DNA of 64,000 bases, from contig NC_089591.1 in assembly GCF_019320115.1 (NCBI RefSeq), positions 17,276,502-17,340,501 of the forward strand, in the 5' to 3' direction. This stretch comes from Miscanthus floridulus (Eukaryota; Streptophyta; Magnoliopsida; Poales; Poaceae). Both the position numbers and the translations under genes were made by a program. Below the pieces are notes generated by a model that was given only the letters and a program-made list of their open reading frames with translations, was not told the DNA's origin and made no database searches. Shown here one piece after another: positions 11,501 to 49,965 of the stretch; position 1 is the stretch's first letter; the number at the start of each line of letters is the position of its first letter.

Positions 11501-11784
11501 GTGGACTTTCCAAACTGGGGCTCACATCTAATGACTTGGCCTGATGGGTGGGTCACTTGGACGTATCTAGGTGAACATGATATGATACCTCGGTGAAGGG
11601 TTAACCAATCCATACCTAAGATGACATCTAGGTTTGTGGAAGGTAGTAGGGTTAGGTCGGCTTTAAAGATAAGACCCTCAATGATAAGACTCACTCCCTT
11701 ACAAATGTGGGTGCATTTTAGATCTCCTAAAGGTGAGCTGGTGATGATAGGCCTTTCACGTGGGGTTACACACAGGTCATGTTC
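8554..11784 (-). pseudogene. E1 pol: protease-RT-RNase H-integrase-chromodomain, decayed
   Basis: On the minus strand the frame continues from gag through the end of the aspartic protease (DVILGMDW, near 11600) into reverse transcriptase. The RT has an LRSGYHQ block (near 11050) and FIDDIL catalytic motif (near 10870). A frameshift follows at about 10820-10850. RT-thumb and RNase H (VLMQDG, YTDHKSL near 10240) follow in the new frame, then the integrase with its zinc-binding N-terminus, [17 protein letters not shown] and NNSYQ blocks, and a GPY/F-like end (VGPYK near 8870). A chromodomain remnant ends at the TAA 8556-8554. A conserved Trp there is a TGA stop. Several other stops make this copy non-functional. 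Most domains are still easy to recognise. Confidence 0.9.
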
Positions 11785-13176
11785 TCATGTAAACTTGGAT
11801 GATATGTAAGAACAAGTTGCTCCTGAGTCAAATAGAACTGATGCGGTATTGCCATTAACTAAAAACATACCGTACACAACGTCAGGGGCAGCCTGTGCTT
11901 CCTTGGTGTCTAGATGGTTGAGACGTCCATGAGTAGTGGATCCCTTGAACTGAGACTTCTGAGTAGCTGAGTTCTGAGGGCGTTTAGTGGCTTTGTGACC
12001 TGGTTGGCCACAAGCAAAGCAGGTGAAAGGCGTACCACCTATAGGGGTTGGTGCGGGTGCCTTCCAGTTTCCAGTGCTCGGTGCGGAGCAGTTCTGTGCT
12101 GGGCGTTCAGTCATTGAGCGAGAATGATTGAAACGATCCTGAGTGTTGCGGTCCTGAGCGTAACGGTCTCGGGTGTGACGATCCTGAGCAGGGCGGGAGT
12201 ATTTGGCAGTGTAGCCTCCACTACCCCTACTCGATCTAGGGTTGTCATCCCTATTGTGGCAAGAGCATTCCCTGGATGGTGCATCTCTATAGAACCTCTT
12301 GCGATCATGACCACGGAGAGACTCCTCAGGCTTACGCTTCCTCTCCCTGTACTCCTCTCCAGCTTTAGCACGATCTTTCTCAATCTGGATGCAGCGATCC
12401 ACCAGAGCATGTAATGTGTTACTCTCAATACCACCAAACTTCAGCTTGATGTGCGGGTTAAGTCCCTTGCGGTAATAGTACAACTTTTCCTTCTTAGAGT
12501 TCACTACATAGGGAGGTGCATAGCATAGAAGGTTGGTGAAATGAGTAGTGTACTTAGTCACCCTATCCTTTCCCATCTTGATGTTGTGGAACTCCTCAGC
12601 TTTGGCCTTGATGACACCCTTGGGAATGTGATACTCAGTGAATGCTTCGGCGAACTCAACCCACGAGATGTTGGCAGGGTCCTCATGGGAATCACTAAAA
12701 CTGTCCCACCAAGTGCGTGCTGCACCTGTGAGCTGGTGTGCGGCTGCTCCAACACTCTCATCGTTGGTGAAAGTAGTGAGGTCAAGCTTCTTCTCCATCT
12801 CCTTGAGCCAGTCATTGGCTACAAGCGGGTCAGGGTCGGTGCCATCTTAGGTCGGTGGCCTTAGTTTTAGGAATCCTTCTAGCTTCCTTTGGAAGTCATT
12901 CTGCTAACCTCCCTAGCGACGGTTTGCTCCTTCAACAAGAGCTACAAGAAGCTAGGTCTATTGTGCCATCACTTCTACCAGGTTCAGTGGTGGTGGTGGT
13001 GGTGGAATGTTCTCCTTAGGTGGCGAGGTATTCTCCAGGTGGAAGGGTATCCCTCCATGTCCATGGCCACGACTGCGGCCATGGTTGTTGCCACCACATC
13101 CCCCATTGGGTTCAACTGGTTCAGGGGTGGGCGCACGTCCTCAATTCATTAGGCGATTAGATCGGCGGTTCGGCAT
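11785..13176 (-). pseudogene. E1 gag and start of protease, decayed
   Basis: I choose the minus-strand ATG at 13176 because it follows CAG directly and opens a Pro/Gly/Arg-rich N-terminus typical of Tekay Gag. Several stops interrupt the first 125 codons. From 12798 a 337-codon open stretch carries the retrotransposon Gag core (AARTWWDSF and the conserved FTEYHIPKG region) and an Arg-rich tail. The zinc knuckle CFACGQPGHKATKR lacks its last cysteine, which is arginine here. A protease active site, LFDSGATCS, lies near the end. The frame is shared with the first part of pol, so Gag-Pol was a single polyprotein. Gag packages the element's RNA. Confidence 0.9.
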
Positions 13177-13512: not shown

Positions 13513-14723
13513 CATACACCGGAGCTAGGATACGACTGTTCTCGATCTTGATCTCCTCATCAGACTTGTGAAGTCAGGACACGTACTTCAGGGCCTCGGC
13601 GAGCTCCTTAGTAGGCTTGGCTCCAGGTAGGGTAGGGCAGGCATCTAGGTTAAGGTGAGTCAGGGCTAACTCAAACTTCTCTATCCTAGGCTTCGTCTTG
13701 CTACAAATCTCCTTGGGTAGCTGATCCCATATACCCTTCATCTCCCTGAGGTGCTTCCTGTTAGACTTCTGCCAAGCCTGCCATGTCCTCTCACACTTGT
13801 CCTGTAGGTACTCGGTCTGCCTAAGTGCCTCGATTAGGTGACCCTAGTTGCAAACAGCCTTCTTCCTAAACTCCTCTAGCTCCTGAGTCATGGTCTTGTC
13901 CCAAGATTGGATCTTTAGCATATCAATCCCCTTGGATCTCTCTCTGTCTCCTCTGTGGTTGAACTCGGCCTTCTTGTCATCCAACTCTCTCTACAACTCC
14001 AATACCTTGCTGTCGAGGTAGCAGTTCCTGTTGCCTAGGTCGGCTGCTTTGTCCTGTAAGTCAGCGACCTCGGCTCTGTGGATTTCTTCATGACGGTTGA
14101 GCTTGTCCTGTTCTTGGCAACTGTCTCAAGTAGACTAGTTCACTCCTATGCTCCCTGCGAGTCTTGCTCCTAGTGCTCTCATAGAAGGGCCTGGTCCTGA
14201 TGTCTCCTCTGCTCCAGCTGGGTCACGTACCTGTCCTGCTCTAGTAGGTGGATAGCTAAGACACGAAGGCATCTGTCCTCCTCGGCAAAGATAACTCTGC
14301 CGGCTGTGAAGCTCTGCTCACTAGGGGTAAGGCTAAGGTCGAGAGCCTAGGGAAGTAGACGGAACTCTGTCGTCTTCAGGTGCTCGTAGTGGTCCCTCAT
14401 CACTCTGTGAAGTGCCTTGTGTGAGATAGCTCGCAGTCCCTCCTCAACTGTGTCCTCTATAGTCAACTCGGTGAAAGCTGGGATAGAAGGTAAGGCAGTG
14501 CTAGCTGGGAACTCGACTGAGGTGACAATCGGTCCTTCGATTCCTCGTTCCTGAGCTAGCTTCCCAGTGCAGGTGACCTTGACAAGCTCGTCGGGGACAC
14601 CTAACATGACGAGAACTCAGCAGAGGGTCTGTGAAAACCCCCGAGCTCACGTAGGTCGAAGGTAAGCTTGGCGTGGTCCAGGGGTAGCAGTCCTAGAGGC
14701 GGCCAGTCGACGTTCATTGCCAT
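13513..14723 (-). pseudogene. E1 ORF0: accessory coiled-coil protein upstream of gag
   Basis: An ORF of about 400 codons lies in the leader between PBS and gag. The start is the minus-strand ATG at 14723, directly after an acceptor-like ACATGCAG. The N-terminus reads MAMNVDWPPLGLLPLDHAK. After a frameshift and a TGA, an 86-codon open stretch (14607-14347) follows, with the block SIPAFTELTIEDTVEEGL. Then comes a Glu/Gln/Arg/Leu-rich region (for example LLEQDRYVTQLEQRR) that looks like coiled coil. The C-terminal part reads LTHLNLDACPTLPGAKP and ends near 13513. Multiple stops show decay. I do not recognise a catalytic domain. Its place in the leader matches E3 ORF0, but the sequences are unlike each other and this one has no H3-like tail. 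Function unknown. Confidence 0.6.
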
Positions 14724-14873
14724 CTGCATGTTTTAAGGAACATGTGTTAGCAGGTCAATATTAGATAAGCCTTGCATAAAAGTAAATGCAGGGTCGGTAT
14801 ATAACTGAAAGAAAGGCTGTTCACGTCCTATTCTATCATCCATTTCTGAGGGTTTCGTCCTATGGTCAAGTAT

Positions 14874-14886
14874 GGCTCTGATACCA
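14874..14886 (-). promoter_or_regulatory. E1 primer-binding site (initiator tRNA-Met type)
   Basis: Minus-strand TGGTATCAGAGCC lies two bases inside the 5' LTR. It is the standard initiator-tRNA-Met complementary site of plant gypsy and copia elements. Confidence 0.9.
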
Positions 14887-14888
14887 AC

Positions 14889-17800
14889 TGAAACGACCCT
14901 AATTTTCGCGAAGGGAAATCCGCAACGTCGAAGTGTAATAACACCATTGTAGATCATATTACCCAAATTCCAGTCGAATATCACATCCATACAATGATAA
15001 TATCAAAGTACAAATAGTGTGGAAGTACTTAAATTATTACATCGCCGTATTGGTGGAATCAAAAGTAGCATTCATTCGGAACAACTTGAAGATAAGATCA
15101 CCAAACTCGAGCGTAGACACGAACTCCTCAACCGTCAAACTCCTCGGAGCTATACTCCTCAGCAGAACCTGTATGCCAAAATTTATCAGTACAATTTATA
15201 CTGGCCACTCCCAACCCTATGAGCATTGCTTTGTGAAAATTGGATGCAAGTTGGATATAGTCAAAAGGAACCTATAAGGCTGGGGTTTCCTATGCATTAG
15301 CATATCAAGTATATATTAGTAGTTTGTCGAGTTTTAACACCATTCCCACACACATTCCACCCCATTTCCATTCCAGAGCTAGGTTTCAATCCTAGGATCG
15401 ATATACCTCCATCACCATCAACACCATATCATCGCTCAGTCAACAGGCCAACTCCCTCTCGGCACTGCCTCAAGGCCCATAGCCCCTGGCTACGACTGAC
15501 ACTCTCTCACGGGGGAAGAAGAGAAGGACTCATCTCACTATCTAGTTTAAGCGAAACCCAGGAAAGGTCCATAGCCGACAAGTCGGCACATGTATTGATC
15601 GATCAACCATACACTCTGCAGAGGTTTTACATAACCACAAGATCCACCTTCCTCGCTGACCATCGTCAACTGGGCTGATTTTGGCTGCTTGCTAGCCTAG
15701 GATAATGCCACTCTACCATTTAGCCCTGGTACACCCCCAGTCTAGTCAGGGGTGGCTGAAACTGTGAGTCATGAGCCAGGTCCACAAGGTCTCCATGAAG
15801 TCTCGGAAGGGTGTGGGGGAAATCCTCCGCGCCCCGTACCTCCTTACACTATCCGCTATCAACCTAGCAGTAGTGGCAATGTCCTACCAAGTAGTCCGGC
15901 CATCCCGCACCATATAGGGCGAGTGGTATATAAGGCTTTCCGGTGAATCTGAGTACTAGTAAGTCCTTAGGGGTGACCAAGCCAGAATGTCTTCATCATG
16001 GTTTCCATTTATCGTGCCACCACAGCACCTCCATCCCGGGCTCCTCCCATCACAGGTTCACACCTAGGACCACCTCATATACCATTTACCCACCACAGGT
16101 ATCCATTCTAGGGGTGCCCAGGTAGCACCTCATGGCAAGACTTGCCCTAGGCTCGTCGTATACTCCAACTTGGTCGACACAACCCACACCCTCCACACAC
16201 CCAAGTCCCACATGCAGCACTCTCCCCAAAGTCCAGATAACACCAGTTTCCACCACGCATGTAGTATAAGCGTAGTAGAAGTATAAATAATGAAATATAT
16301 ATAGCAGTGAGCGTGTGTCTAGACTAATAGCAGGGTTTGCAGGGGTAAGGTTGCGTCAAGGTAAAGGCCTTCAAGTAAGCATACTACCATGCAATTCCTA
16401 TCATGAAATGACTGTAGCAGTAAAAGTGAAGCAATAGCAGTTCTATATTAGCCATGCATAATAGGTGCTACGAGATTGGGTGGGATGTGGCACCTTCAAT
16501 GTAGTCATCTCCGTTCTCTTCACAGTACTCCCAATCCTCGTCTATCTGGTTCTCCTCCGAGTCTGCAAACGATCGCATTATAGTCGCGTTAGCGACGTCT
16601 ATAGAATAGCACAAAGAAGCAATGAAAATTCAAAAGAGCCAAATGCACTCAAACATGGGTTCATTGCGTAGAGCTCGATTTTAGATGAATTTTGGTCCTA
16701 GTTTCGTATTTTTCTGAGGTCATATGAATTAGTTATGAATTTCCAAAGTTTAAATCATTTCTGAAAATGGAAAAAGGCTGAATTAATCCTGGGCTGACAC
16801 ATGTCACGCAGTGACTGGTCCACGTGGCATGCTGACATCAGCATTATGTCAGCATGATGTCAGCATCTCGGTTCCGAGCTGACAGGTGGGGTCCAGCTGA
16901 CATCAGCATGACGTTAGCAACGTCATCAGTTCTGACAAGTGGGTCTAGGGGCTCTTGGGTCACTGACATGTGGGTCTGGTCAAAGTCAACATCAGTCAAC
17001 AGGTGAGTCAATGGTCAACGGTCAGAGTCACCAACATGTGGGGCTTGGGTTGCTGACATCAGCAGCTGATGTCATCGTGACATCAGCATGATGTCACCTT
17101 GGCTGTGTTGCTACTGACATGTGGGTCCCGCGTGACATCATCATGACGTCAGCATCTGACGTGTGGGTCCAGAGTGTCTGTGCCACTGACATGTGGGGCT
17201 AGGTCAATGGTCAACATTGACCAGTCAACGGTCAACACGGACTGGGTCTCAAACGGGCTCCGGCAGGCTTCGGGTTAGGCCGGTCTGGGCCAGACACGTG
17301 GCAAGCTGTGACGCTGCCACATCATAGCCGTGGGCCTCTACTGGGCTTCGTCCACAGCGCTGGCTCATGGTGCGTGGTTCATGGTGGACATAGGTTCACG
17401 GTCCATGGACCTAAGACAGGGTCCATGGTGGACCGAGTCCACCCTTCTTCTCTTAGGCGTGGTTCATGTGCACCGGGTGCAGGCGTGGACGGCCGGCGAG
17501 GGGTGTCTCCCCTGTTTCTCCCATGGCTGTGCTCCCACCAGCGGTGTGCTCATTGGTGAGCCTCCATGGTAGCGCTAGTGTCCAATTGGGGAGGGGAAAG
17601 GCTTCCCCAGGCCACGGTGATCATGATGCTGGGGTCTAAGTGGTGGCCGGGGCCTTCTAGGGCGTTGGCCACGGCAGCTGGTGGCTTGGCAGTGCTCGCC
17701 GGTGGCAAGGTCACGCATGCAGGCTCTCCGGTGGCTCGACTAGGCAGATAGGGGCTTCTGCGGTTCTGTGGGTGCACGACAAAGGTGTCTAGGGCTCAAG

Positions 17801-34038: not shown

Positions 34039-35981
34039 TGTCGGCGCAAAAACATGGTAGCTACGCCGGGTGGACACGCAGCAAGCCAGAATGATCTAGA
34101 GATCTGCCTGGCTTCAATGTAGGACCAGTCGACCCAGCGAATTCCTAAGGGCGTCCCATTCTATTTGACCTACAATTTACAAGGAGAGAAAGTTTATCAG
34201 TAATTTAGGGTGGAACATGCCGATTTTGCCGAAATAGTTCTAAGTGTGCCGCTTCAGGAGCAGCCAGACAGGAAAATCGACTAAAACAACTGATACAAGA
34301 AGAAATCGACTATTAAGGACTGTAAAGCTCATAGGTCATGATCAATTTTATAGTAATGAATACAATGCACCTAGTTTTTATGATCCTTTCCCTTGAGCTA
34401 TTAGCGTGTATGCGTCAAAGATTCATCACTAGCTAAATTAGATTTTTATTAATACGTGGTGTAAAGCCAATGAATCCGGTGAGAAGGGACATGGCATGCA
34501 AACAATCGACTCTTTGATATAAATAGATCTATGAACCGTCTAGATCTAATCTATTACCATCAACAGTGAGGTTCGACTGGATCGATGCAGCTATGATGAT
34601 GATAATAGTCTAGAACCAGAAAATCCATAGAACCGACCATACTTCAACAGATTCATGAAAACATGCCATATCTGTGAAAGCATAGGCAAATAAGCTAAAA
34701 CAACCGATTCAGGTAGAAAAGGAATTATAGCATGTGAACAATCGACTATTCAATATGAACAAATCTATAAACTCATTAGATCTAACCTGTTATCGTTAAT
34801 AGTGGGGTTCGATCGGATCGATGGCAGCAATGATAAAGACAACAAGTCAATCCTTTAAAATAAACAGATCTATTAACATTTAATAGAGTCATGAAGACAC
34901 AATATAAGTGTTAAAGTACAGGCGATCGGCTATTTAGCCGATGCATGCATAGCAAACAGTCAAGGTCACGCCTGGTCGAAAGCAAATCTACCAACCAATA
35001 TACTCCGATTTAAAGTGCTAATAATGGGGATCGATTCGATTGTTACAGCCATAATAGCGAGCTATAGACCAGATTCAACTAGCTAGCAAACCTTCTCAAG
35101 ATCAGACATGCTTTGACCGCATACTATGCATAATCAAGATCAAAGTAGAATAGCCAATAAAACATAATCCGTCGTTTAAAGTAAGAACCATCGCAATGTG
35201 ACAAAATAAACGATGGACTAAAGGATGTGAGGCCGATCTAGATTGATCTCAATCAGGCAGGTTGATATTGCTGAAACTAATGACAACAAGAACATCAGCA
35301 AGATCGGTAACTTAATAAATCTACCTAAAGGATGCCACCCTTAGGTAGAGCTGATAACTTGACCTTAATCTAATTAAAGCAGTGGAGATCGAACTTAACC
35401 AATGTAGCCATACCTGAACTAGATAAGGATCGATAACTAACTTATACTAGAGCTCATAAGGAGTCAGCCAGACCAATGCAGCCTTACAAACAAGAATATA
35501 AGCCATGACGGTACTTACAGACAAGCTAGAGGTCGTCCGGATCGATGCAGCCTTGCTTGTTGAAGAACTCGTCGAGATCTACAGTACTCCTACTCCTAAG
35601 GGTTGGCGTGAAGCCAGAAAATGTAATTGGTATTGATTGATTTAGGATGCTTTTTACAATAGCTAGGGTCTAATATTTATAGCCAGAACCTAAGCATGAA
35701 TCCTACTCCAATACGACTCATTACATTCTTTGGAATAAAAGAAAACATTCCTAACTTAAGATAACTTGGACCCTAATCTTCCTTTTTTGTAGAGTCTGAC
35801 ATATTTTTCTGACGCCAACCATAGCTCATTGATGTTATTTGCTGATGTCATCTGAAGAGAGCTGATCCTAGCACCGCATCTAAATCAGCTGATATCGATC
35901 CTTATGCAATCTATTCCTTGATGACACAATCTTGGAAGCTTCGAGTTCCCACGTTCTTCTTCCCAAATTTTGGTGTAAACA
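34039..35981 (-). repeat. E2 5' LTR (1943 bp)
   Basis: Right-hand LTR with the same ends as 23408-25349. It holds a perfect palindrome near 34926 (arms ATCGGCTA and TAGCCGAT around TT). I could not name a tRNA for the primer site: the sequence just inside the LTR (CGCATTCTAGCACGCCC on the minus strand) does not begin with TGG. Confidence 0.93.
35674..35681 (-). promoter_or_regulatory. TATA box of the E2 5' LTR promoter
   Basis: Minus-strand TATAAATA is conserved with 25042-25049 in the other LTR. Confidence 0.6.
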
Positions 35982-35986
35982 GGTGG
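35982..35986. repeat. Target-site duplication of E2, right copy
   Basis: GGTGG, identical to 23403-23407. Confidence 0.95.
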
Positions 35987-37973
35987 TTTTCTTGCATTTA
36001 TATCTGATCCCCTCCAGAAGCAATGCTTCCTGTATTTGTCAATTTTCTTGATAACAACCTTTGGAAGAATTAGGGTACACATGAAAAAAGTGGGCAGGGA
36101 AGAGAGGACTACATTTGTTATCTGTAGACGGCCTACCTGATTCAAGAAAGAGGACATTCTTGTCAGTCTTGTTTCACACCTATCAACAATTGGGAGGAAA
36201 TCTTGAGCCCTTGGCCTGGCAATGCTTAAGGGCAAGCCAAGGTAAGTGAAGGGCAAACTACCTTTAGAGCAACCAAAAGTTCTGGCTAGAATTTCAAGCC
36301 TCTCATCTGACACATTAATATGTATCATCATTGATTTGCTGAAGTTTACCCTGAGACCAGTACTCATTGAATTAACAATGATCTGAGGAAAAAAGATACC
36401 TTGTGACATCTTCTACAATAATCAGTGTATCATCAACATACTGTACTATAGGAAAATCATTGGATGCTCTAGTTGGTATTGGAAGTTGCAAGAGGCCCAT
36501 ATCATTGGCCTTGTTTATCATTGACTGTAAGAAATCTGCTTCAAAGAACAAATAATAGGGGGATAAGAGGTCAACTTGCCTAGCCCTCCTTTTGCAGTGG
36601 AAAGTTCTCCCGAGAGCCCCATTAAGAAGCATAGATGAGGTGCCCGAAGAAAAAATGTCCTGCATCCATGTTAACCATTTCTATCCAAACCCTTTGGCCT
36701 CCATCAGAGTAAGCATGGCCTGGTGCTCAATTTTATCAAATGCCTTTTCAAAGACTAACTTAATGATGACAATCTCCTTTCTTGAATGGTGGCAAAGATG
36801 AAGATATTCATATGACCAAGACAAACAATCCTGAATTGTTCTATTTCTGATTAATCCATATTAATTCCTATGAATTAAGGAAGTATGATGGGCTGCAACC
36901 TGTTTGCAAGCAGCTTAGTGACCAACTTGACTGAGGAGTTGAGAAGAGATATTGGCCTGAACCCTAAAACTGTTCTTGGCCCATCAACTTTTGGGATAAG
37001 AGTGATGTAGGAGTTGGTACTCTTAAGGCACAATGAATTATTGTGGAAGGCCGGACAGAGATTATAGAAGTGCTGCTTGATGACATGCTAGCTTTTCTTC
37101 AAGAATTCATTATTAAACCCATTTGGACCAGGTGAATTATCTTTTAGGAGGGCCTTGATAATACTATCAAGTTCATTCTAGGTAAATGGGGCTTCCAGAA
37201 GATCAAGATGATTGCTTCTCTGAATGAAGAAGCTTGGGTTAATAGTAAACTCAGAAAATTCAGAGGTGCCCAACCTGAATTTGAAATCATCCCAAAGGAC
37301 CTGCTCTTTCCCTATGTGATCACTGACTACTACCCCTTCACTAGAAACAAGCTCAGCAATTGAGTTTCCCCTATGCCTTATAGTAGCACGGTATGAAAGA
37401 AGCTTGTACCTACACCACCAAACTTTATCCATTTGGCTTCACCTCTTTGCTTCCAGTAAATTCTTTGTTGCTCAAGGAGTTCTAACAAATGATTTTTAAG
37501 CAACTCTTTAAAGTTCCATTCCTCCACACTTAGATCTATGTAGTCCCCTAAACTTCCATGAGTTGCAGGGATGCTTTAGTGTTTTCAATCAAAGTTTTTG
37601 GACCTATTCTGGATGCTTGCCACTCTTTCAGTTTTCTTCTCAGATTCTTAAATTTTGCTATTAGAATCTTGGCATAATCACCATTTTTGACAAGAGCTGC
37701 CAAACAATTTAGACAGAATCTCAGTGAACTGATCACTAAGCAGCTAATAGTTTTCAAATCTAAAAACTTTACTCTTAGGGATAGAGGTAGCAACTAAGAC
37801 TAGGCTGGGAGTATGATCAGAAGGTGTCATGTCAAAAGCTTTGATAGTGGTGTTTAGGTATGAAATAGTCCAACTCTTAGTAGTAAAAACCCAGTCTAGC
37901 TTTTCTAACAGTGGTGAAGGTTGCATATTTGACTGGGTGTATTTTCTACCTTGCAAAGGAATTTCATTTAGGC

Positions 37974-37978: not shown

Positions 37979-40789
37979 TGTCACACCCAATTTTAAGGAT
38001 AAAATGGAGTGCAAAATCTTATGTGCGCCCAGAGATCAGTCACACACATAAGCTGACAAATTATGAATAGTATCATCACAAATATTTATTACATCACGAA
38101 TAAGACAGAGTTATCACGTAAATATAGCAGGAATAATAAAAAGATCTCTTGCGGAAGCTCCAATTCACAGGGACGTCGACTGGTTGACCACAAGTCTAGT
38201 AGTCCTCAGGGAAATCATCATTCTCAAGGTCATCTGTTACCCATCTGGGATTTTTATCCAAGTAATGAAAATAAACAAGCGTAAGTACATGTCGTACTCA
38301 ACAAGTGTAACACGGGGTTCATGAGGCTCAAAAAGCTAGACACGGTTCAACAGCGTTCAGCTTTTAGTTGTCACAATTTTAGCTTATGAGTAGCATCAAG
38401 TTGTTTCAATTCCCATTGCCAAACACATGATCAAATGTAAACATGAATAATGAATAGCATAAACAAATGTTACTTAGTGTTCATCTATTCCATAAGGGTT
38501 CCAAGGCCGCTCGTGACCGTGAGCACGGCTGATATACCAGTTTTACGCTCTGCGGAGGTTGTACACTTTCACTATGAGTCGTGATTCCCATATGCCCGGG
38601 TTTATAACTCCCAAAACACTTCCAAGGTGAGCAGGCAGGGGTCACTATGAAGCCTTTTGAAGGTTCGTCTAACAAGTTAGGGCCGCTAGGTTTCTGTGGC
38701 CTACAAATGTAGAGCTCCTCTTCCTACAGGCACAATGACGCGCAGCCTATACACTGACGGACAGAGGCCGCACTACATCCAACCCGGAACACACCCCTCT
38801 TGCGCCATAAAGGTAACCACTAACAAGCTAGAAAAGGTTCTCATACTGAGCCAAAGCCAGAGCTATGTAGCTCTCATAGCTGTACTGTAAGTCTCGGATG
38901 ATCACTTATAGATAAGTCCTTAGGGAGAGGAATCTGAAGCATTTAGAAAGTAGCTAAACACTCCAGCCCCCTGTTTCCATGTTGTTAAAAAGTCATATTT
39001 TAGCATTTATTGCATATACCATTAGTTAAGTTACAAGATCATGGTTCAATTGAGCTCTAGCAAAGCTACCCACATGCATAACCCATAGATGACAAGGTAA
39101 TAGTTCAATTCTAGGAAATCCCTATCAAGGCAACACATGCAATATGAATTTAATGAATTAAAGTGAATAGGAAACAAGGATGATCCCATGCTATACTTGC
39201 CTTGAGCAATGTACACCTGCTGGTCCTGCTCGTCAAAGTCGTACCCTTGATCCTCCGAGAACTGCTCACCGTCTATACTCGATAACAACAGCAACATACA
39301 AGCATCCAGGAGCAATCATGCAAGGCAAACAAGGCTACAGATTAGAACAGTACACCAACAGCAAAGAATCAAGACGAAAAGTTTGGAAAACGAATCTACG
39401 TCTCGCTATGAACACGCAGACGCGAAGATCACAAAAATCGGATCTAAAACGGAAAAGTTATGGTTTAAACAAGATTTCCTATAGACAAATAATAGATTAG
39501 ATCTAAGCTCGAATTATAAAAGTTGGAAACCTACTGTACAGTAGCATAAACGTGTAGATTACTTATTTACGAACCCAACACAACTTGAACGGATCTAATC
39601 GGAGTTAAAACGGAGATTTTACGGCTAAAACAAGTTGAATGGCAAAACTGTGAATAACTGAAAACGTATTTCATTAAAACCGAACCAAAATACGCTTTCG
39701 AAAGAAAGAAACGTAACTTGTGAAATGCGCAAAGGACCGTGGGTTGAATTTGGAATAGTTATAAGGGCGTATTTGAAAAATAGGCAGCGAAGGGGTATCT
39801 TCTTTTATAAGCCGTCGGATTAGAAACCGACAGATGGGAATCGATCCAGCCGAAATAAAAAAAAAAAAAACCCAGCCGGCACAGTATGCCGGCGGCTTGA
39901 CCACGACAGCGCCATGGCTGGCATGCCAGAGCTCGCGGTACACGGCTCGCAGCGCGCTACACGTCGAAAGAAAAAGACAGAGGGAGAGAGGAAGGAACGG
40001 CGAACTCACCGGACCCAAAACGGAGGACCGAGAGGCAGTTGGGGCGGTCCGGCGTGAGTTGACAGCGGAGGTCAGTGGCGGCAATGGATCGGAGGTCGGC
40101 TACGGCTGTTCGGCGAAGAAAACGGGCGCTAGATGAGATTGGGGAGAGAGGAGGGGCACGACCGCTATTTATGGGGCGCGGAAAACTTGAGCGCGACGTC
40201 AAGGAGAGCGTGGCCGAGGCGGACTCAATCGGCGACGGCACAGTGTCCGCCTGGAACACGAACAAGGGGAAGGAGATGAGTCTGACTCGCGGGCCTGGCC
40301 AGTCAGCTATGAAGGAAGGCGTTTGCATGAGCCCACAGAAGCGACTGGCACGCGATCGGGCTGGGGAAACTGGGCCTTGGCTTGCGGCGTGGGCCGACGA
40401 CGCTGGCTGCGCGAGCTGGGCTGAGGAAACTGGGCAAAGCCGAGCGGGCCTCAGCGTCGGGAAAAAAAACAAAGCGGCCAGCGGACGGGAAAAGAAAAAC
40501 AGGTCCACAGGCCGAGACTGAGCATGGAGAAGAAAGTTATTCTTTTCTTTTTCGAATTTTTCTTCATAGCAAGTTTTAAGATGAAATTCCAACTCAACTC
40601 GAAATCCAATTTCAAACCAAGCAATTCAAAATAGTATGCAGTGGCATGTATGCACATTCATGTTTGATTTTATATTTGACTTTTAGTTTTATTAAAAATG
40701 ATTATTTTTTCTAAATTCAAATGCTCACAAAATGCATAATTAAATCATATTCACCTATTTTAAAATGTTGCAAATTTTAGGGTGTTACA
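37979..40789 (-). repeat. E3 3' LTR (2811 bp)
   Basis: TG...CA-bounded copy of 46620-49433. A GC-rich promoter-proximal block at about 39880-40520 holds a minus-strand CCATAAATAG TATA-like box at 40165-40174. ORFs in this block (for example 40592-39957 and 40075-40521) are shared by both LTRs but have no domain. Confidence 0.95.
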
Positions 40790-40837: not shown

Positions 40838-43072
40838 TTACTCAAATAACTGTGGGTATGTTTTCCTTAGATCATCTTCTCTTTCCCAAGTAGCCTCATC
40901 CACGGTATACCGATTCCACTGAACCTTGCACATCTTTATAACTCGGCTCCTTGTAACTCTTTCTGCTATCTCTAAAATCTTTACTGGAAACTCCTCATAA
41001 GTGAGATCTTCCTTAACTGTAAGCTCTTCTAACAGTATCTGTTCCTCAGGTACACGCAAACACTTCTTTAGCTGAGATACATGGAACACATCGTGTACAC
41101 CCGACAAACTCTTAGGCAATTCTAACTGATAAGCTACCTCTCCACGTCTCTCTAAAACCTTGAAAGGTCCAATATACCTTGGTGCTAACTTTCCCTTCAT
41201 GTTAAACCTTCTCACACTTCTCATAGGTGACACCTTTAAGTACACGTAATCACCTACTTCAAAAACCAATTCTCTTCTTCTAGTGTCGGCATAGCTCTTT
41301 TGTCGAGACTGAGCCACTCTCAAGTTATCCCTGATCATCCTTACTTGCTCTTCTGCGTCTCTCAAAACATCTGGTCCAAACACTTGAGTTTCTCCTGTTT
41401 GATTCCAAAACAACGGGGTCCTACACTTTCGTCCATACAAAGCTTCGAATGGTGCCATATTGAGACTTTTTTGATAACTATTGTTGTACGAGAACTCTGC
41501 ATAAGGCAAACTCTTATCCCAACTTGTTCCATACTGCAACACACAAGCCCTCAACATATCCTCCAATATCTGATTAATTTTCTCAGTTTGCCCATCTGTC
41601 TGAGGATGATATGCTGCACTAAAATTCAACTTGGTTCCCAACGAACTATGTACTTGCTGACAAAAATGAGATGTAGATTTGGTACCTCGATCAGACACAA
41701 TTTTCTTGGGAACCCCATGTAGACAAACTATTCTCTCCATATATAGCTGAGCTAACCTTGGTCTATTATAAGTAGTCTTGACCGGTATAAAGTGAGCAAC
41801 TTTAGTTAAACGATCCACTATTACCCAGACTGAATCATAACCTCTCTGAGTACGTGGTAACCCAACTATAAAATCCATACCAACTTCTTCCCACTTCCAC
41901 TCAGGTATCTTCATTGGTTGTAACAATCCTATAGGTCTTTGATGTTCAGCCTTGACTCTCTGACAGGTATCACACAAAGCAACATATTCAGCAACATCTC
42001 TTTTGAGTCCGTACCACCAATACTTCTCTTTTAAATCCAAATACATCTTGGTACTTCCAGGATGAATAGAATAAGCAGACTCATGGGCCTCACAAAGAAT
42101 TGCCTCTCGTAGAGCCTTATCCTCAGGCACACACAACCTTTTCCCAAACCACAAAGTTCCATTATCATCCATACTAAAACCTGGTGCCTTACCAATCACT
42201 ATGTTTTCTGCTATCTCCTTCAACTTCGCATCCTATAACTGTCCCTCATGTATTTCTTGCTCCAATTTAGGCTCCAACACCAACTCCACTGCATTGGTAA
42301 CAAAACATAAATTCAGTCGCTCAAATTCAGCACACAACTCACTTGACATCGATGTCACTTGCACCTCATTGACATAACTCTTCCTACTAAGAGCATCGGC
42401 AACAACGTTCGCCTTCCCAGGATGATAGTGTACCTCCAAATCATAATCTTTGATCAACTCTAACCATCGACGCTGTCTCATATTAAGATCTATCTGAGTG
42501 AAAATGTACTTCAGACTTTTGTGATCCGTATAGATGTCACTCTTATGTCCAATGAGATAATGCCTCCATATCTTCAAAGCATGAACCACTGCTGCTAACT
42601 CCAAGTCATGAGTAGGATAATTTAACTCATGCTTTCTCAACTGCCGAGATGCATAAGCCACTACTCTGCCTTCCTGCATAAGAACACATCCAAGTCCCTG
42701 ACGAGATGCATCACAATAGATCAAAAAACTTTTATTTAGGTCTGGCAAAGTCAACACTGGAGCTGTAGTCAACCTCTTCTTCAACTCTTCGAAGTTAGCC
42801 TGGCACTTCTCGGACCACACGAACTTAGCATTTTTCTCCAATAAGGCTGTCATTGGCTTAGCAAGCTTAGAGAAACCTTCAATGAACCTTCTGTAGTATC
42901 CGGCTAATCCCAAGAAACTACGTATCTGTCCCACATCTGTTGGTGGCTTCCAATTTAGCACATCCTTCACCTTACCGGGATCTACTGCAATTCCACCGTT
43001 GGAGACAACATGACCAAGAAAAGAAACTTCCTTCAACCAAAATTCACACTTGCTTCGCTTGGCATACAGCTT
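40838..43072 (-). pseudogene. E3 pol, second part: RT thumb, RNase H, integrase, chromodomain
   Basis: Same frame as gag. RT connection and RNase H ([24 protein letters not shown]) span 43036-42233, then a TAG at 42235-42233. Integrase follows from 42223: zinc-binding N-terminus with IHPGSTKMY and the CDTC pair, catalytic core with [16 protein letters not shown] and HPQTDGQTEKI, NNSYQ, and a GPY/F-like module (YIGPFKV). The chromodomain at the end (KMCKVQWNRYTVDEATWERE) finishes with the TAA/TAG-type stop at 40838. Chromodomains of this class direct integration to heterochromatin marked by H3K9 methylation in characterised chromoviruses. Only in-frame stops, no frameshift, disable this part. 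Confidence 0.92.
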
Positions 43073-45235
43073 CTATTCTCTGAGCTTCTGCAGCACCAAC
43101 CTCAGATGTTCAGCGTGCTCTTCTTCTATTTTAGAGAATATCAGTATATCATCGATGAACACCACCACAAACTTATCCAAAAACTCCATGAACACCTTGT
43201 TCATCATGTACATAAAGTAGGCAGGAGCATTGGTCAAACCAAATGACATAACAGTGTACTCATATAAACCATACCTCATAGTAAAAGCTGTCTTGGGTAC
43301 ATCTATTGCACGAATCCTTAATTGATGGTAGCCAGAACGAAGATCAATCTTAGAGAAAACACAAGCACCTCTCAACTGATCAAACAAATCATCAATTCTA
43401 GGCAACGGATACTTATTCTTGATAGTAACCTCGTTGAGTGACCGATAATCGACACACATCCTCTGAGTACCATCCTTCTTGTCAACAAATATAACTGGTG
43501 CTCCCCAAGGTGACGAACTAGGACGAATAAAACCTTTCTCCTGTAACTCCATAATTTGTTTCTTAAGTTCTTCTAATTCTTTAACCCCCATTCTATATGG
43601 ACGCTTAGCTATAGGTGTAGTTCCAGGTAATAATTCAATAATAAACTCAATATCACGGTCAGGCGGCATACCTGGCAAATCATCAGGGAACACATCTGGA
43701 AATTCATCCACCACTGGGTCCTCCTTGTTGTCGCTATCATCAAGCTGGTTCACTGTAGCGGTTGGCTGTGTTTGTATTACTACATCAACCTTGATTCTCT
43801 CTCCATTCGGTGCGGTCACAACAACTACCCTTTCCTTACACTGAATCACTGCTTGTTGTTTCATCATCCAATCCATACCCAGAATCACATCTATACTGGA
43901 TGCTCTCAACATAATGGGGCTCACTTTAAACTCTACCCCCCTTAAAGATAGACTAGTCGGAAGACAACGATATGCAGCTTGCATACTTCCACCCGGTGAG
44001 TTTACTAACATGGGATTTTGCATGGCACATAAGGGTATGCTGTGGTTTCTAACGAATGCTTGTGATATGAATGAATGCGAAGCTCCAGAATCAAAAAGAA
44101 TAGTGGCAGGGGTTGAGTTAATATTGAACGTACCGAGCATGACTTCTGGTTCCGCAAACGCCATCTCTGTAGACACATGATTCACCTTCCCATAATGTGT
44201 TGGCTTCTGGTTGCTGTTCTGTTTCTGGGGGGTTTGCTGATTAGGCTTCTCAGGGCAATTATAAGAGAGGTGACCTTCTTTGCCACAACGGAAACACTTG
44301 CTGGGGGTGCTAGGAGCACTAGTCTTCATAGGAGTGTTGTTGGATGCTCCCTGTCGTGGTGTTTGCTGACCACTCTACTGCTGGGGACGTTGATTGGCAT
44401 TCTGCTGCTGGTTTGGGTTGCGCTGCGGATACTGACCATAATTCCATTGACTGGGTGGTCCCTGAAACCTCTGCTGGAAGCCTTGTTGAGAGTTGGCACG
44501 TGGATGAGTATTGCTCCTAGAGGCTTGTCCCTGAAGCCTCCTCTTCTTGGCCTCCATCTCCTTGCGCTTGTTGTCAATAACAATAGCGCGATTCACCAGC
44601 GTCTGAAAGTTGGGGTAGGTGTTTGACATAAGCTGGAGCTGCAGACCATCATACAGTCCTTTGAGAAAGCGGCGTTGCTTATCAGCATCATCAGCCACTT
44701 CATTAGGAGCATAGCGTGACAACTGAGCAAACTTGTCACGGTACTCAGCGATAGACATGGATCCCTGCTTCAGAGCTCTGAACTCCTCTTGCTTAAGTTC
44801 TATCAATCCCTCTGGTATGTGATAAGATCTGAAATTGTCCTTGAACTCCTGCCAGGTAACAGGAGGTGCGTTGGCGGGACGTCCATACTCGAATGACTCC
44901 CATCAGTCCTGAGCTTCTCCCTGAAGTTGTCCTGAAGCGTACAACACCTTTTGCTGATTATCACATTGAGCTATGTTGAGCTGCCTCTCTATTGCACGAA
45001 GCCAATCATCTGCTTCTAGTGGATCAGTGGCACGAGAGAACACCGGGGGACGGCCCTTCAAGAATTCACCACGCTTATCACGTGGAGCTCCACCACCCTG
45101 TTGATTCTGCTGATTCTGCACCAACGTTTGCATGAGCTGCGTCTGTATTGCCAAGAGTTGTTCAATAGTCAGTGGTGGTGGTGGTGGATGTGGGGGAACA
45201 CCTCCACGACCTTGGCCTCTTCCTCTTCCAGACAT
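43073..45235 (-). pseudogene. E3 gag-protease-RT, near-intact with in-frame stops
   Basis: The ATG at 45235 follows an AGCAG acceptor-like site and opens a Gly/Arg- and Pro-rich N-terminus. The Gag core includes DPLEADDWLRAIERQL and FRSYHIPEGL. It is interrupted by TGA (44905-44903) in a position where Trp is expected. A Gln/Asn/Arg-rich tail with TAG at 44377-44375 precedes an intact CX2CX4HX4C knuckle ([14 protein letters not shown]). Protease follows with [11 protein letters not shown] and VILGMDWM, then RT with LRSGYHQL and the catalytic [11 protein letters not shown] (near 43150). A TAG at 43075-43073 ends this open stretch. Every stop lies in the same frame as the downstream pol, so only point changes separate this copy from an open polyprotein. 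Confidence 0.93.
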
Positions 45236-45910: not shown

Positions 45911-46426
45911 CTAGGGGCGATACTTATGAGGAAGCTCCTCATACATCTTGGGCAAATTAAGGCACACCCTTTGTTCATCTATCACTTGCTGGTGCCTCTT
46001 GATTGCTTTCTGCTGAACCTTCAATTGATCCTCCAACCGGCGAATCCTTGACACAGCCTCGTAACCAAAGTGTACCATCGCTTCCGTGGTTGGATCCATG
46101 CCCTGCGGGTCCATCATCGCCCATCCCAATTCTGGGTGTTGATGAGGAAGGAATCGATATTGATCATCCTTCATGACCTCGAATCGGCGACCACGGATCG
46201 GCTCATCCTCCTCAACAATGTCTTCATCTTTGTTTTCGGACAAGTCAACGATCTCAACTTCTTGAGGGTCATCCTGGGCTGGCTCAGGTGTGGACTCAGG
46301 CGTTGGCGGTGTTGGCGAATCCAATTCCTACTCCTGAGGTTCTTCCTCCTTAGGATCCACGGACAAACCTTGTGGCGGGTAATACCCTCCAGTGCTCATG
46401 CGGGCAGTCTTGTGGGCACGAGGCAT
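45911..46426 (-). CDS. E3 ORF0: accessory protein with histone-H3-like N-terminal tail
   Basis: A 172-codon frame (stop included) in the leader between PBS and gag. The start is the minus-strand ATG at 46426, directly after CTGTAG. It begins MPRAHKTARMSTGG. With Met removed (expected before Pro) it aligns ungapped with the H3 tail, sharing R2, T6, A7, R8, S10, T11, G12, G13, P16 and L20, with Met at the K9 position, His at K4 and Tyr at K14. Then follow an acidic Pro/Glu region, a SUMO-interaction-like VEIVDLSE with acidic residues after it, and a C-terminal coiled-coil-like helix (RIRRLEDQLKVQQKAIKR). There is no histone fold, so it is not a histone. A TAG at codon 33 (46330-46328) breaks this copy. 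Function unknown; a role in blocking or reading H3K9 methylation is inference. Confidence 0.7.
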
Positions 46427-46603
46427 CTACAGAATTAGGTTTAGTTAGGTTAGATTAGAAGCAGTAATTTTCATAATAGAATAAGGCAAAAGAAGCATAA
46501 AACTTTAGCAAATAACAAGGGTGAGATAGAAAGCATGAAATGAGTGAAGCAAAAGAAGCTAAAACGACCATTGCTAACTAGGCTTGCGTCCTACAGTCAA
46601 CAT

Positions 46604-46616
46604 GGCTCTGATACCA
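46604..46616 (-). promoter_or_regulatory. E3 primer-binding site (initiator tRNA-Met type)
   Basis: Minus-strand TGGTATCAGAGCC three bases inside the 5' LTR, identical to the E1 site. Confidence 0.92.
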
Positions 46617-46619
46617 ATC

Positions 46620-49433
46620 TGTCACACCCAATTTTAAGGATAAAATGGAGTGCAAAATCTTATGTGCGCCCAGAGATCAGTCACACACATAAGCTGACAA
46701 ATTATGAATAGTATCATCACAAATGTTTATTACATCACGAATAAGACAGAGTTATCACGTAAATATAGCGGGAATAATAAAAAGATCTCTCGTGGAAGCT
46801 CCAATTCACAGGGACGTCGACTGGTTGACCACAAGTCTAGTAGTCCTCAGGGAAATCATCATTCTCAAGGTCATCTGTTACCCATCCGGGATTTTTATCC
46901 AAGTAATGAAAATAAACAAGCGTAAGTACATGTCGTACTCAACAAGTGTAACACGGGGTTCATGAGGCTCAAAAAGCTAGACACGGTTCAACAACGTTCA
47001 GCTTTTAGTTGTCACAATTTTAGCTTATGAGTAGCATCAAGTTGTTTCAATTCCCATTGCCAAACACATGATCAAATGTAAACATGAATAATGAATAGCA
47101 TAAACAAATGTTACTTAGTGTTCATCTATTCCATAAGGGTTCCAAGGCCGCTCGTGACCGTTAGCATGGCTGATATACCAGTTTTACGCTCTGCAAAGGT
47201 TGTACACTTTCACTGTGAGTCGTGATTCCCATATGCCCGGGTTTATAACTCCCAAAACACTTCCAAGGTGAGCAGGCAGGGGTCACTATGAAGCCTTTCG
47301 AAGGTTCGTCTAACAAGTTAGGGCCGCTAGGTTTCTGTGGCCTACGAATGTAGAGCTCCTCTTCCTACAGGCACAATGACGCGCAGCCTATACACTGACG
47401 GACAGAGGCCGCACTACATCCAACCCGGAACACACCCCTCTTGCGCCATAAAGGTAACCACTAACAAGCTAGAAAAGGTCCTCATACTGAGCCAAAGCCA
47501 GAGCCATGTAGCTCTCACAGCTGTACTGTAAGTCCCGGATGATCACTTACAGATAAGTCCTTAGGGAGAGGAATCTGAAGCATTTAGAAAGTAGCTAAAC
47601 ACTCCAGCCCCCTGTTTCCATGTTGCTAAAAAGTCATATTTTAGCGTTTATTGCATATACCATTAGTCAAGTTACAAGATCATGGTTCAATTGAGCTCTA
47701 GCAAAGCTACCCACATGCATAACCCATAGGTGACAAGGTAATAGTTCAATTCTAGGAAATCCCTATCAAGGCGACACGTGCATTATGAATTTAATGAATT
47801 AAAGTGAATAGGAAACAAGGATGATCCCATGCTATACTTGCCTTGAGCAATGTACACCTGCTGGTCCTGCTCGTCAAAGTCGTACCCTTGATCCTCCGAG
47901 AACTGCTCACCGTCTATACTCGATAACCACAGCAACATACAAGCATCCAGGAGCAATCATGCAAGGCAAACAAGGCTATAGATTAGAATAGTACACCAAC
48001 AGCAAAGAATCAATATGAAAAGTTTGGAAAATGAATCTACATCTCACTATGAACACGTAGACGCGAAGATCACAAAAATCGGATCTAAAACGGAAAAGTT
48101 ATGGTTTAAACAAGATTTCCTATAGACAAATAATAGATTAGATCTAAGCTCGAATTATAAAAGTTGGAAACCTACTGTACAGTAGCATAAACGTGTAGAT
48201 TACTTATTTATGAACCCAACGCAACTTGAACGGATCTAATCGGAGTTAAAACGGAGATTTTACGGCTAAAACAAGTTGAATGGCAAAACTGTGAATAACT
48301 GAAAACGTATTTCATTAAAACCGAACCAAAATACGCTTTCGAAAGAAAGAAACGTAACCTGTGAAATGCGCAAAGGACCGCGGGTTGAATCTAGAATAGT
48401 TATAAGGGCGTATTTGAAAAATAGGCAGCGAAGGGGTATCTTCTTTTATAAGCCGTCGGATTAGAAACCGTCGATGGGAATCGATCCAGTCGAAATAAAA
48501 TAAAATAAAAACCCCAGCCGGCACAATACGCCGGCGGCTTGACCACGGCAGCGCCATGGCTGGCATGCCGGAGCTCGCGGCACATGGCTCGCAGTGCGCT
48601 ACACGTCGAAAGAAAAAGACAGAGGGAGAGAGAGGAAGGAACGGTGAACTCATCGGACCCGAAACGGAGGACCGAGAGGCAGTTGGGGCGGTCCGCCGTG
48701 AGTTGACAGCGGAGGTCGGCGGCGGCAATGGATCGGAGGTCGGCTGCGGCTGTTCGGCGAAGAAAACGGGCGCTAGATGAGATTGGGGAGAGAGGAGGGG
48801 CACGACCACTATTTATGGGGCGCGGAAAACTTGAGCGCGACGTCAAGGAGAGCGTGGCCGAGGTGGACTCAATCGGCGACGGCACAGTGTCCGCCTGGAA
48901 CACGAACAAGGGGAAGGAGATGAGTCTGACTCATGGGCCCGGCCAGTCAGCTGTGAAGGAAGGCGTTTGCGTGAGCCCACGGAAGCGGCTGGCGCGCGAC
49001 CGGGCTGGGGAAACTAGGCCTTGGCTTGCGGCGTGGGCCGACGACGCTGGCTGCGTGAGCTGGGCTAAGGAAACTGGGCAAAGCCGAGCGGGCCTCAGTG
49101 TTGAGAAAAAAAACAAAGCGGCCAGCGGACGGGAAAAGAAAAATAGGCCCACAGGCCGAGACTAAGCATGGAGAAGAAAGTTATTCTTTTCTTTTTCGAA
49201 TTTTTCTTCATAGCAAGTTTTAAGATGAAATTCCAACTCAACTCGAAATCCAATTTCAAACCAAGCAATTCAAAATAGTATGCAGTGGCATGTATGCACA
49301 TTCATGTTTGATTTTATATTTGACTTTTAGTTTTATTAAAAATGATTATTTTTTCTAAATTCAAATGCTCACAAAATGCATAATTAAATCATATTCACCT
49401 ATTTTAAAATGTTGCAAATTTTAGGGTGTTACA
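46620..49433 (-). repeat. E3 5' LTR (2814 bp)
   Basis: Promoter-bearing LTR of E3, nearly identical to 37979-40789 (four mismatches in the first 240 bases). Confidence 0.95.
48809..48818 (-). promoter_or_regulatory. TATA-like box of the E3 5' LTR promoter
   Basis: Minus-strand CCATAAATAG in GC-rich sequence, conserved at 40165-40174. Confidence 0.55.
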
Positions 49434-49438: not shown

Positions 49439-49965
49439 AAACTGATGACCTCATTGAACAAGAGCATTTCAACCATATTCCCCCTAGGTTTGTTTATATT
49501 CTCCTGCTTCCTAATTTGGTTAAAGTCTCCTAATAGAATCTAGTCAACATGGTCTGGGATCTCAAATTCTTTTAGCTAGTTATGAAAAAGCACTTTACCT
49601 TCTGTGGTATAGGGCCCATAAACACAGGTTAGGATCCAAGAAGCATCATTATGACAAGAGGTAAACTCTATGGATAGCCCAAACTGGTTACTCAAAGTTC
49701 TTTGCCCAAAAAAGACTGAGCTTTTCCAAATAACAAGGATGCCACCAGAGGCTCCAATTGAAGGGATGAACTCAAAGGTATCAAAAGCACTCAGGCATAA
49801 ATTGTTTATAAACTGTCTATCAAAGACCTCTCTTTTTGTCTCCTGTAAACACATAATGTCATAGGATGATTGCACAATTTTATCTCTCATAGCATCCCAT
49901 TTCCATATGGCATTAATGCCCCTAACATTCCAAGAAAGAACATTCCACTTTCTACAAAATGTTTG
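49439..49965 (-). pseudogene. LINE ORF2, N-terminal piece: AP-type endonuclease
   Basis: On the minus strand ORF2 starts near 49965 with KWNVLSWNVRGIN, the usual opening of LINE endonucleases. It continues DIMCLQETKREVF (catalytic Glu in the QET motif) and GASGGILVIWKSS, then ILTCVYGPY and a GDFN motif. It is cut by E3 in the middle of the domain and resumes at 37973. The domain nicks target DNA in this family. One or two stops are present. Confidence 0.88.

Follow-up and report, generated by a model that had tools for sequence, protein, structure and literature searches.

Why should a plant retrotransposon encode a protein whose N-terminus reads like the tail of histone H3? The question is raised by a 64,000-nucleotide stretch of Miscanthus floridulus DNA (the window), in which an LTR-flanked Ty3/gypsy element on the minus strand, termed E3 in an earlier, sequence-only reading, carries an additional reading frame, ORF0, on the same strand between the primer-binding site (PBS) and gag. 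The element is laid out as follows.

46620..49433, minus strand: 5' LTR, its inner end reading TGTCACACCC on the plus strand (LTR alignment)
46604..46616, minus strand: primer-binding-site-like TGGTATCAGAGCC (sequence)
46427..46603, minus strand: T-rich leader separating the PBS from ORF0; contains five upstream ATGs and ends in TTCTGTAG (sequence)
46364..46426, minus strand: H3-like N-terminal tail of ORF0, MPRAHKTARMSTGGYYPPQGL (translation)
46328..46330, minus strand: in-frame TAG at codon 33, which breaks ORF0 in the window copy (translation)
46196..46327, minus strand: acidic linker remnant rich in Pro, Glu and Asp, ending ...EEDEPI (translation, comparison with relatives)
46195..46196, minus strand: internal deletion junction, with 101 residues (44-144 of P0001) missing (comparison with the relative P0001)
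45911..46195, minus strand: C-terminal part of ORF0, RGRRFE... to the stop (translation, comparison)
44378..45235, minus strand: gag, with a stop at 44903-44905 inside (PF03732)
40841..44374, minus strand: zinc knuckle and pol, comprising protease, RT, RNase H and integrase (Pfam, reading frames)
40844..40966, minus strand: chromodomain-like end of the integrase (PF00385, E 4e-5, 23.9 bits against a Pfam cut-off of 25.1)
37979..40789, minus strand: 3' LTR (LTR alignment)

The LTR pair is 97.05% identical over a 2816-column alignment, and the LTR length of 2.8 kb with the terminus TGTCACACCC fits the ~3 kb published for the RIRE8/Retrosat2 group. The PBS-like sequence TGGTATCAGAGCC is presumably the complement of tRNA-iMet. 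A further stop lies at 44375-44377, ahead of the zinc-knuckle stretch, and the pol stretch is broken by stops at 43073-43075 and 42233-42235. Chromodomains of Tekay elements carry the motifs (K/R)-X-(L/T)-R-X-(k/r) and EEXTWEXE (PMC3350952); compared by eye, the window integrase end fits both, reading RVTRSR and DEATWERE with the first Glu changed to Asp. Judged by these motifs and by its layout, the element is a Tekay-type chromovirus and ORF0 its extra 5' protein.

The window ORF0 begins MPRAHKTARMSTGG (minus strand, translated). Residues 2-21 align with H3 1-20 ungapped and in register from residue 1, with 10 of 20 positions identical (R2, T6, A7, R8, S10, T11, G12, G13, P16 and L20), an alignment which the sequence-only reading had described and which translation and comparison reproduce. 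Within the TARKSTGG segment, 7 of 8 residues are kept. The modifiable lysines had been described as gone; this is correct for K4 (His), K9 (Met) and K14 (Tyr), and K18 is Gln, but H3 Q5 is replaced by Lys and the tail consequently still holds a lysine. Among all Met-initiated, stop-free 20-mers of the window (968 in total) the best runner-up has 6 H3 matches, and neither 4 million 20-mers of background composition nor 1 million shuffles of the window peptide yielded one reaching 10 matches or a BLOSUM score of 42. The peptide scores 42 against H3 and -16, -16 and 1 against H4, H2A and H2B, respectively. In a comparison with 177,635 distinct PDB sequences, all 23 matches of the window 21-mer are H3 or Cse4; the 21-mer of a relative, P0081, gives 113 matches, the best 60 of which are H3 or H3 peptides, and a 9-row profile gives 144, the best 60 being H3, H3 peptides or Cse4, with a best E of 0.0014 and the register again starting at residue 1. 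Taken singly, the P0081 and window peptides have weak E-values (0.032 and 0.48, respectively), and the PDB over-represents H3, such that exclusiveness and register, not E-values, carry the weight. Alignment of the ORF0 profile with H3 1-35 by hhalign gives a probability of 94.8, with columns 1-20 placed on 1-20. Thus, the H3 likeness of the ORF0 start is real and, on these sequence comparisons, far outside chance. A histone-fold domain was looked for and not found, the Pfam matches of P0058 and of 38 ORF0-family members including no histone family. ORF0 would not be a member of the histone family and appears to fall under histone mimicry, of which K-to-M/I inhibitors are prior kinds.

Relatives were gathered in three protein searches, one of which contributed the best 120 of its 290 matches, giving 160 listed proteins that are mostly fragments on short contigs. 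The tail is present in 27 of these, making 28 rows with the window copy, while BLASTP places the first residue of each of the remaining 133 no earlier than residue 21 of the full-length protein. Family members with an N-terminus devoid of TAR-x-STGG, whose existence would have spoken against the sequence-only reading, were not encountered: an N-terminus without the tail motif was seen in none of the 133 tail-less rows and in none of the 160 listed relatives. P0073, P0087 and P0141 begin at residue 21, just beyond the tail, as if a stop or a lost start had removed the tail in decayed copies. All five near-full-length relatives carry it: P0058 (MARDRKTARISSGGYYPPRAL), P0072 (MVCAHKTACITTGGHYPPRAL), P0076 (MVRANKTARISTGGYHPPRYQ), P0081 (MARSRKTACKSSGGRIPPRVL) and P0155 (MTRAFKAARISSGGYYPPRGL).

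Over the 28 rows, H3-like residues are retained at T6 (27), A7 (26), R8 (21), S10 (26), T11 (25, with Ser in 3), G12 (21), G13 (27) and P16 (26). Residues foreign to H3 are conserved as well, namely K5 (28), Y14 (26), Y15 (25) and P17 (27). Several of the 27 tails have single changes, and that of P0065 has decayed to 5 matches. Seven rows have Arg, Lys or Glu in place of G12 and seven have Cys or His in place of R8, the latter perhaps a result of CpG decay; some rows with a changed G12 or R8 may be decayed copies, but the resemblance to H3 is not rigid. Residue 1 is small (P, S, A, V or T) in every row, and removal of the initiator Met is therefore expected. When 17,893 family 20-mers were scored, all 24 with an H3 score of at least 25 start at residue 2. 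P0081 and P0058 have the highest BLOSUM scores against H3 among nine tails scored (51 and 45), and both begin MAR.

At position 9 the 28 rows have Ile in 25, Met in 2 (the window copy and P0022) and Lys in 1. The Met reported previously at the K9 position is thus present in the window copy and in P0022 but is not the family residue; on these counts Ile is read as the family norm and Met as the state of a subfamily. P0022 has the same Met9 tail without the codon-33 stop and continues into the region deleted in the window copy, indicating that the Met9 form is not confined to a dead copy. P0081, a deep relative with Lys9 and Cys8 (MARSRKTACKSSGG), outscores the other eight tails examined in its likeness to H3; a tail bearing K9 could itself be methylated and not act as an inhibitor. 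Lys9 was considered as the ancestral state and rejected, as it occurs only in P0081 while the most distant member, P0155, has Ile. From the residue of P0155, and apart from any tree, Ile is the likelier old state.

The tail is retained where the remainder of ORF0 has diverged. Identity to P0155 over residues 1-21 is 76% for P0058, 67% for P0076 and 57% for both P0081 and P0072, compared with 34-37% outside the tail for all four partners and 31-40% for linker and core. The binomial P for this tail excess is 0.0003 for P0058, 0.003 for P0076 and a marginal 0.05 for P0081. When near-full-length members are paired and four regions compared, the tail ranks first in identity in 7 of the 10 pairs, the exceptions being P0058-P0072 (tail 0.62, core 0.77), P0076-P0081 and P0081-P0072; the excess is not significant in P0058-P0076 (P 0.15) and marginal in P0058-P0081 (P 0.04). 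Mean identities of tail, linker and core start are 0.82, 0.69 and 0.63 over the 22 closest rows and 0.62, 0.41 and 0.46 over the five near-full-length relatives. Combined, these sequence comparisons identify the tail as a family trait retained across deep relatives. For the whole protein, Ka of 0.2574 and Ks of 1.6471 are published for Oryza ORF0 (PMC3485330), a ratio of ~0.16 by our own arithmetic, which implies constraint. Searches of viral contigs returned no ORF0 DNA relatives, and degenerate DNA patterns gave 0 matches, whether built on the N-terminus (run on viral contigs) or on THPLEDTYWK (run on viral and genome contigs).

The tail is followed by a strongly acidic linker, with 22-28 acidic and 0-2 basic residues over positions 22-100 in four proteins. 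Structure prediction suggests a disordered tail (one model) and, beyond the linker, a domain resembling the double-stranded RNA-binding domain (dsRBD), whose closest counterparts are plant DRB proteins, with a long helix behind it (two models). The modelled ORF0 has the alpha-beta-beta-beta-alpha fold of a dsRBD, and no dsRBD family is found among the Pfam matches of 38 ORF0-family members. A hallmark of dsRBDs is a basic KKxAK at the start of helix 2; P0058 lacks this motif and has TIEDSIEDAAF at that point, making RNA binding by the domain doubtful. The P0001 counterpart of 45911..46195 is predicted to be mostly long helix and is probably a coiled coil. The window copy of ORF0 is dead, as it has the codon-33 stop and lacks 101 residues that take in almost the entire dsRBD-like domain.

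The ATG of ORF0 at 46426 is directly preceded by an in-frame TAG, and the open frame starts at this Met. Translation of the frame from this Met would thus make the tail the true N-terminus. The sequence TTCTGTAG directly before this ATG resembles a 3' splice acceptor, possible use of which would bypass the five upstream ATGs; splicing there to an in-frame upstream exon would mean that the tail is no longer N-terminal. The leader (46427-46603, minus strand) also has CTAAC-like stretches.

What might such a tail do? By sequence, the parts of H3 needed by H3K9 methyltransferases appear mostly kept in ORF0 and the target lysine replaced. The G9a recognition motif is XAR-K-SXX (PMC6261651), and in the G9a-H3K9M crystal the peptide is ordered over residues 3-12 (PMC5030085). 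The earlier statement that the residues contacted by H3K9 enzymes remain is largely borne out, most of them being kept across deep relatives, and the sequence-only interpretation thus gains partial support. DIM-5 tolerates K4L, K14R and A15M in vitro and some ORF0 differences from H3 fall at these positions (4, 14 and 15); overlap of the matching positions with the DIM-5-required set is only weakly non-random (P 0.04). Inhibition of PRC2 in the H3K27M/EZHIP system is reported for both Ile and Met, and in EZHIP Met or Ile works while Lys, Arg and Glu do not (PMC6513997). Our literature search found no report of Ile at the K9 position tried on an H3K9 enzyme. Retention of the residues that the enzymes need, with Ile or Met in place of the lysine, makes a pseudosubstrate of SUVH-type enzymes the best reading of the tail, and we place its acting as a decoy for SUVH/KYP-type H3K9 methyltransferases only slightly short of an even chance. 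Counting against it are the conserved Tyr14-Tyr15, Pro17 and Lys5, which point to constraints that H3 mimicry does not explain, and the Lys9 with Cys8 of P0081. KYP is a target worth hitting, as its inhibition in plants by a parasite protein, geminivirus TrAP, illustrates (PMC4606454).

As a methyltransferase decoy, the tail would act through its first ~14 residues, free and disordered, entering the substrate groove of a SUVH/KYP-type enzyme, where A7-R8 and S10-T11-G12 would make the usual contacts and Ile or Met at position 9 would occupy the lysine channel, the placement seen for H3K9M in G9a and presumed for Met406 of EZHIP in PRC2. H3K9me2, and hence non-CG DNA methylation, would be blunted at the element during its expression, and the dsRBD-like domain with the long C-terminal helix could bring about dimerisation or recruitment to small-RNA/RdDM sites. 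The analysis itself establishes the sequence, its register, family conservation and a predicted fold; translation from the ORF0 ATG, Met removal, binding, inhibition, targeting and benefit to the element are all steps that we infer. The complete proposal, in which ORF0 is a natural counterpart of the H3K9M/K9I oncohistones mounted on a dsRBD-like domain that traps or inhibits host H3K9 methyltransferases and so escapes silencing, possibly at both arms of RdDM (chromatin and small-RNA), is more tentative and we regard it as possible rather than probable.

The tail could instead be a genuine H3 mimic directed at another partner, such as a reader, a demethylase, an Aurora-type kinase (R-x-S), 14-3-3, an importin or a histone chaperone, and would then serve nuclear import, chromatin tethering or particle assembly, not methyltransferase inhibition. 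R8-x-S10 is kept in most rows and an R-x-S context fits a kinase site, and the strongly acidic linker behind the tail is of a kind seen in histone-binding proteins. PHD-type readers require H3 residues 1-4, however, and the tails mostly depart from H3 at residues 3-4; of the 28 rows, 26 have Tyr in place of K14 and 27 have Ile or Met at position 9, the residues reported to block a SET enzyme. Nuclear localisation, predicted for sunflower and grass Tekay 5'aORF proteins (PMC11728184), adds to the case for such a partner, which we nonetheless consider unlikely while giving it real weight. Accidental convergence, with the tail being a short motif conserved for an unrelated job (e.g. nucleic-acid binding or localisation), draws on the same conserved non-H3 residues K5, Y14, Y15 and P17 and on the many chances that a genome scan for anything notable offers. 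It has to contend with the register from residue 1, with a match equalled by none of 5 million random or shuffled 20-mers, with H3 and Cse4 as the sole PDB matches among those listed, and with position 9, where 27 of the 28 rows have one or other of the inhibitory residues; we judge it rather improbable.

Two further explanations are very improbable. Binding of the tail to the chromodomain of the element's own integrase, for integration targeting or self-assembly, had been offered in the sequence-only reading, and the same element does possess a chromodomain-like integrase end. The suggestion is disfavoured because an H3K9M peptide is unbound by the fission-yeast chromodomains of Clr4, Swi6, Chp2 and Chp1 (PMC5030085) and because chromodomains of type II plant retrotransposons lack the conserved aromatic Y24 and usually Y48 (PMC3350952); Ile would probably substitute poorly for methyl-lysine inside an aromatic cage. 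Capture of the tail from a host H3 gene, followed by drift without function, would suit the MAR beginnings and high H3 scores of P0081 and P0058 (51 and 45, the most H3-like of nine tails) but not the tail's lead in identity over the three other regions in 7 of 10 deep pairs, nor the whole-protein constraint evident from Ka 0.2574 against Ks 1.6471 in Oryza ORF0 (PMC3485330).

Extra 5' ORFs of Tekay elements are already known (PMC3485330, PMC11728184, PMC6317226). The ORF0s of Retrosat2, RIRE3 and RIRE8 resemble that of the window in lying 5' of gag-pol in elements with LTRs of ~3 kb, the LTR terminus of RIRE8 and Retrosat2 being TGTCACACCC as in the window element; they share faster divergence than ORF1 and a function described as not settled, but the same study models them as hydrolases, an acyltransferase and a transporter (PMC3485330). 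The sunflower Tekay 5'aORF is similar to ORF0 in its 5' position and long disordered region and its protein is predicted to be nuclear, although its authors found no amino-acid similarity between sunflower and grass 5'aORF proteins; maize and sorghum 5'aORFs gave a weak Foldseek match (TM 0.35-0.37) to a DRBM protein (PMC11728184), in agreement with the dsRBD-like fold of ORF0. Neither PMC3485330 nor PMC11728184 uses the word "histone" anywhere in its main text, and among the top-ranked papers of searches of the open full-text literature no title or abstract opening describes an H3-like tail in a retrotransposon protein.

One close parallel is EZHIP, which is likewise not a histone but has a disordered segment resembling H3, with Met (or a working Ile) at the target lysine. 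It differs in having a K27 context inside a mammalian protein and PRC2 inhibition demonstrated experimentally (PMC6513997), whereas ORF0 has a K9 context at a free N-terminus and a proposed activity. The H3K9M peptide co-crystallised with G9a reads TARMSTG at residues 6-12, exactly as the window ORF0 does, but H3K9M mutants are true histones in nucleosomes and ORF0 is a non-histone protein (PMC5030085). Geminivirus TrAP is a parasite protein aimed at plant KYP, as proposed for ORF0, but binds the KYP catalytic domain, with no H3-like tail mentioned in the abstract (PMC4606454). VANC of VANDAL elements is likewise plant transposon-encoded counter-silencing; VANC proteins differ in being sequence-specific anti-silencing proteins, and the opening parts of the abstracts mention no H3 mimicry (PMC10398659, PMC5735166).

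ORF0 of Tekay/Retrosat2-type elements has had no settled function since its first description, and the conserved H3K9I/M-like tail poses a concrete and cheap question: does the 21-residue peptide inhibit plant SUVH enzymes? If so, ORF0 would counter H3K9 methylation as a histone-tail decoy encoded by a retrotransposon, oncohistone-like K-to-M/I inhibition would have arisen as a counter-silencing strategy, and the amplification of silenced chromoviruses in plant genomes would be explained in part.

The window also contains a second, degraded Ty3/gypsy element at 8789-12846 (minus strand), with further frames up to 15002. Frame remnants upstream of its gag (13574-13843, 14347-14616 and 14733-15002, all minus strand) are unlike ORF0 by eye, and five ORF0-family queries found no match upstream of this gag, the nearest being at 16114-16260 (plus strand, E 0.43). 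Pieces resembling LINE-type (non-LTR) reverse transcriptase/endonuclease, recognised by eye only, lie on the minus strand at 35885-36412 and 49576-49890.
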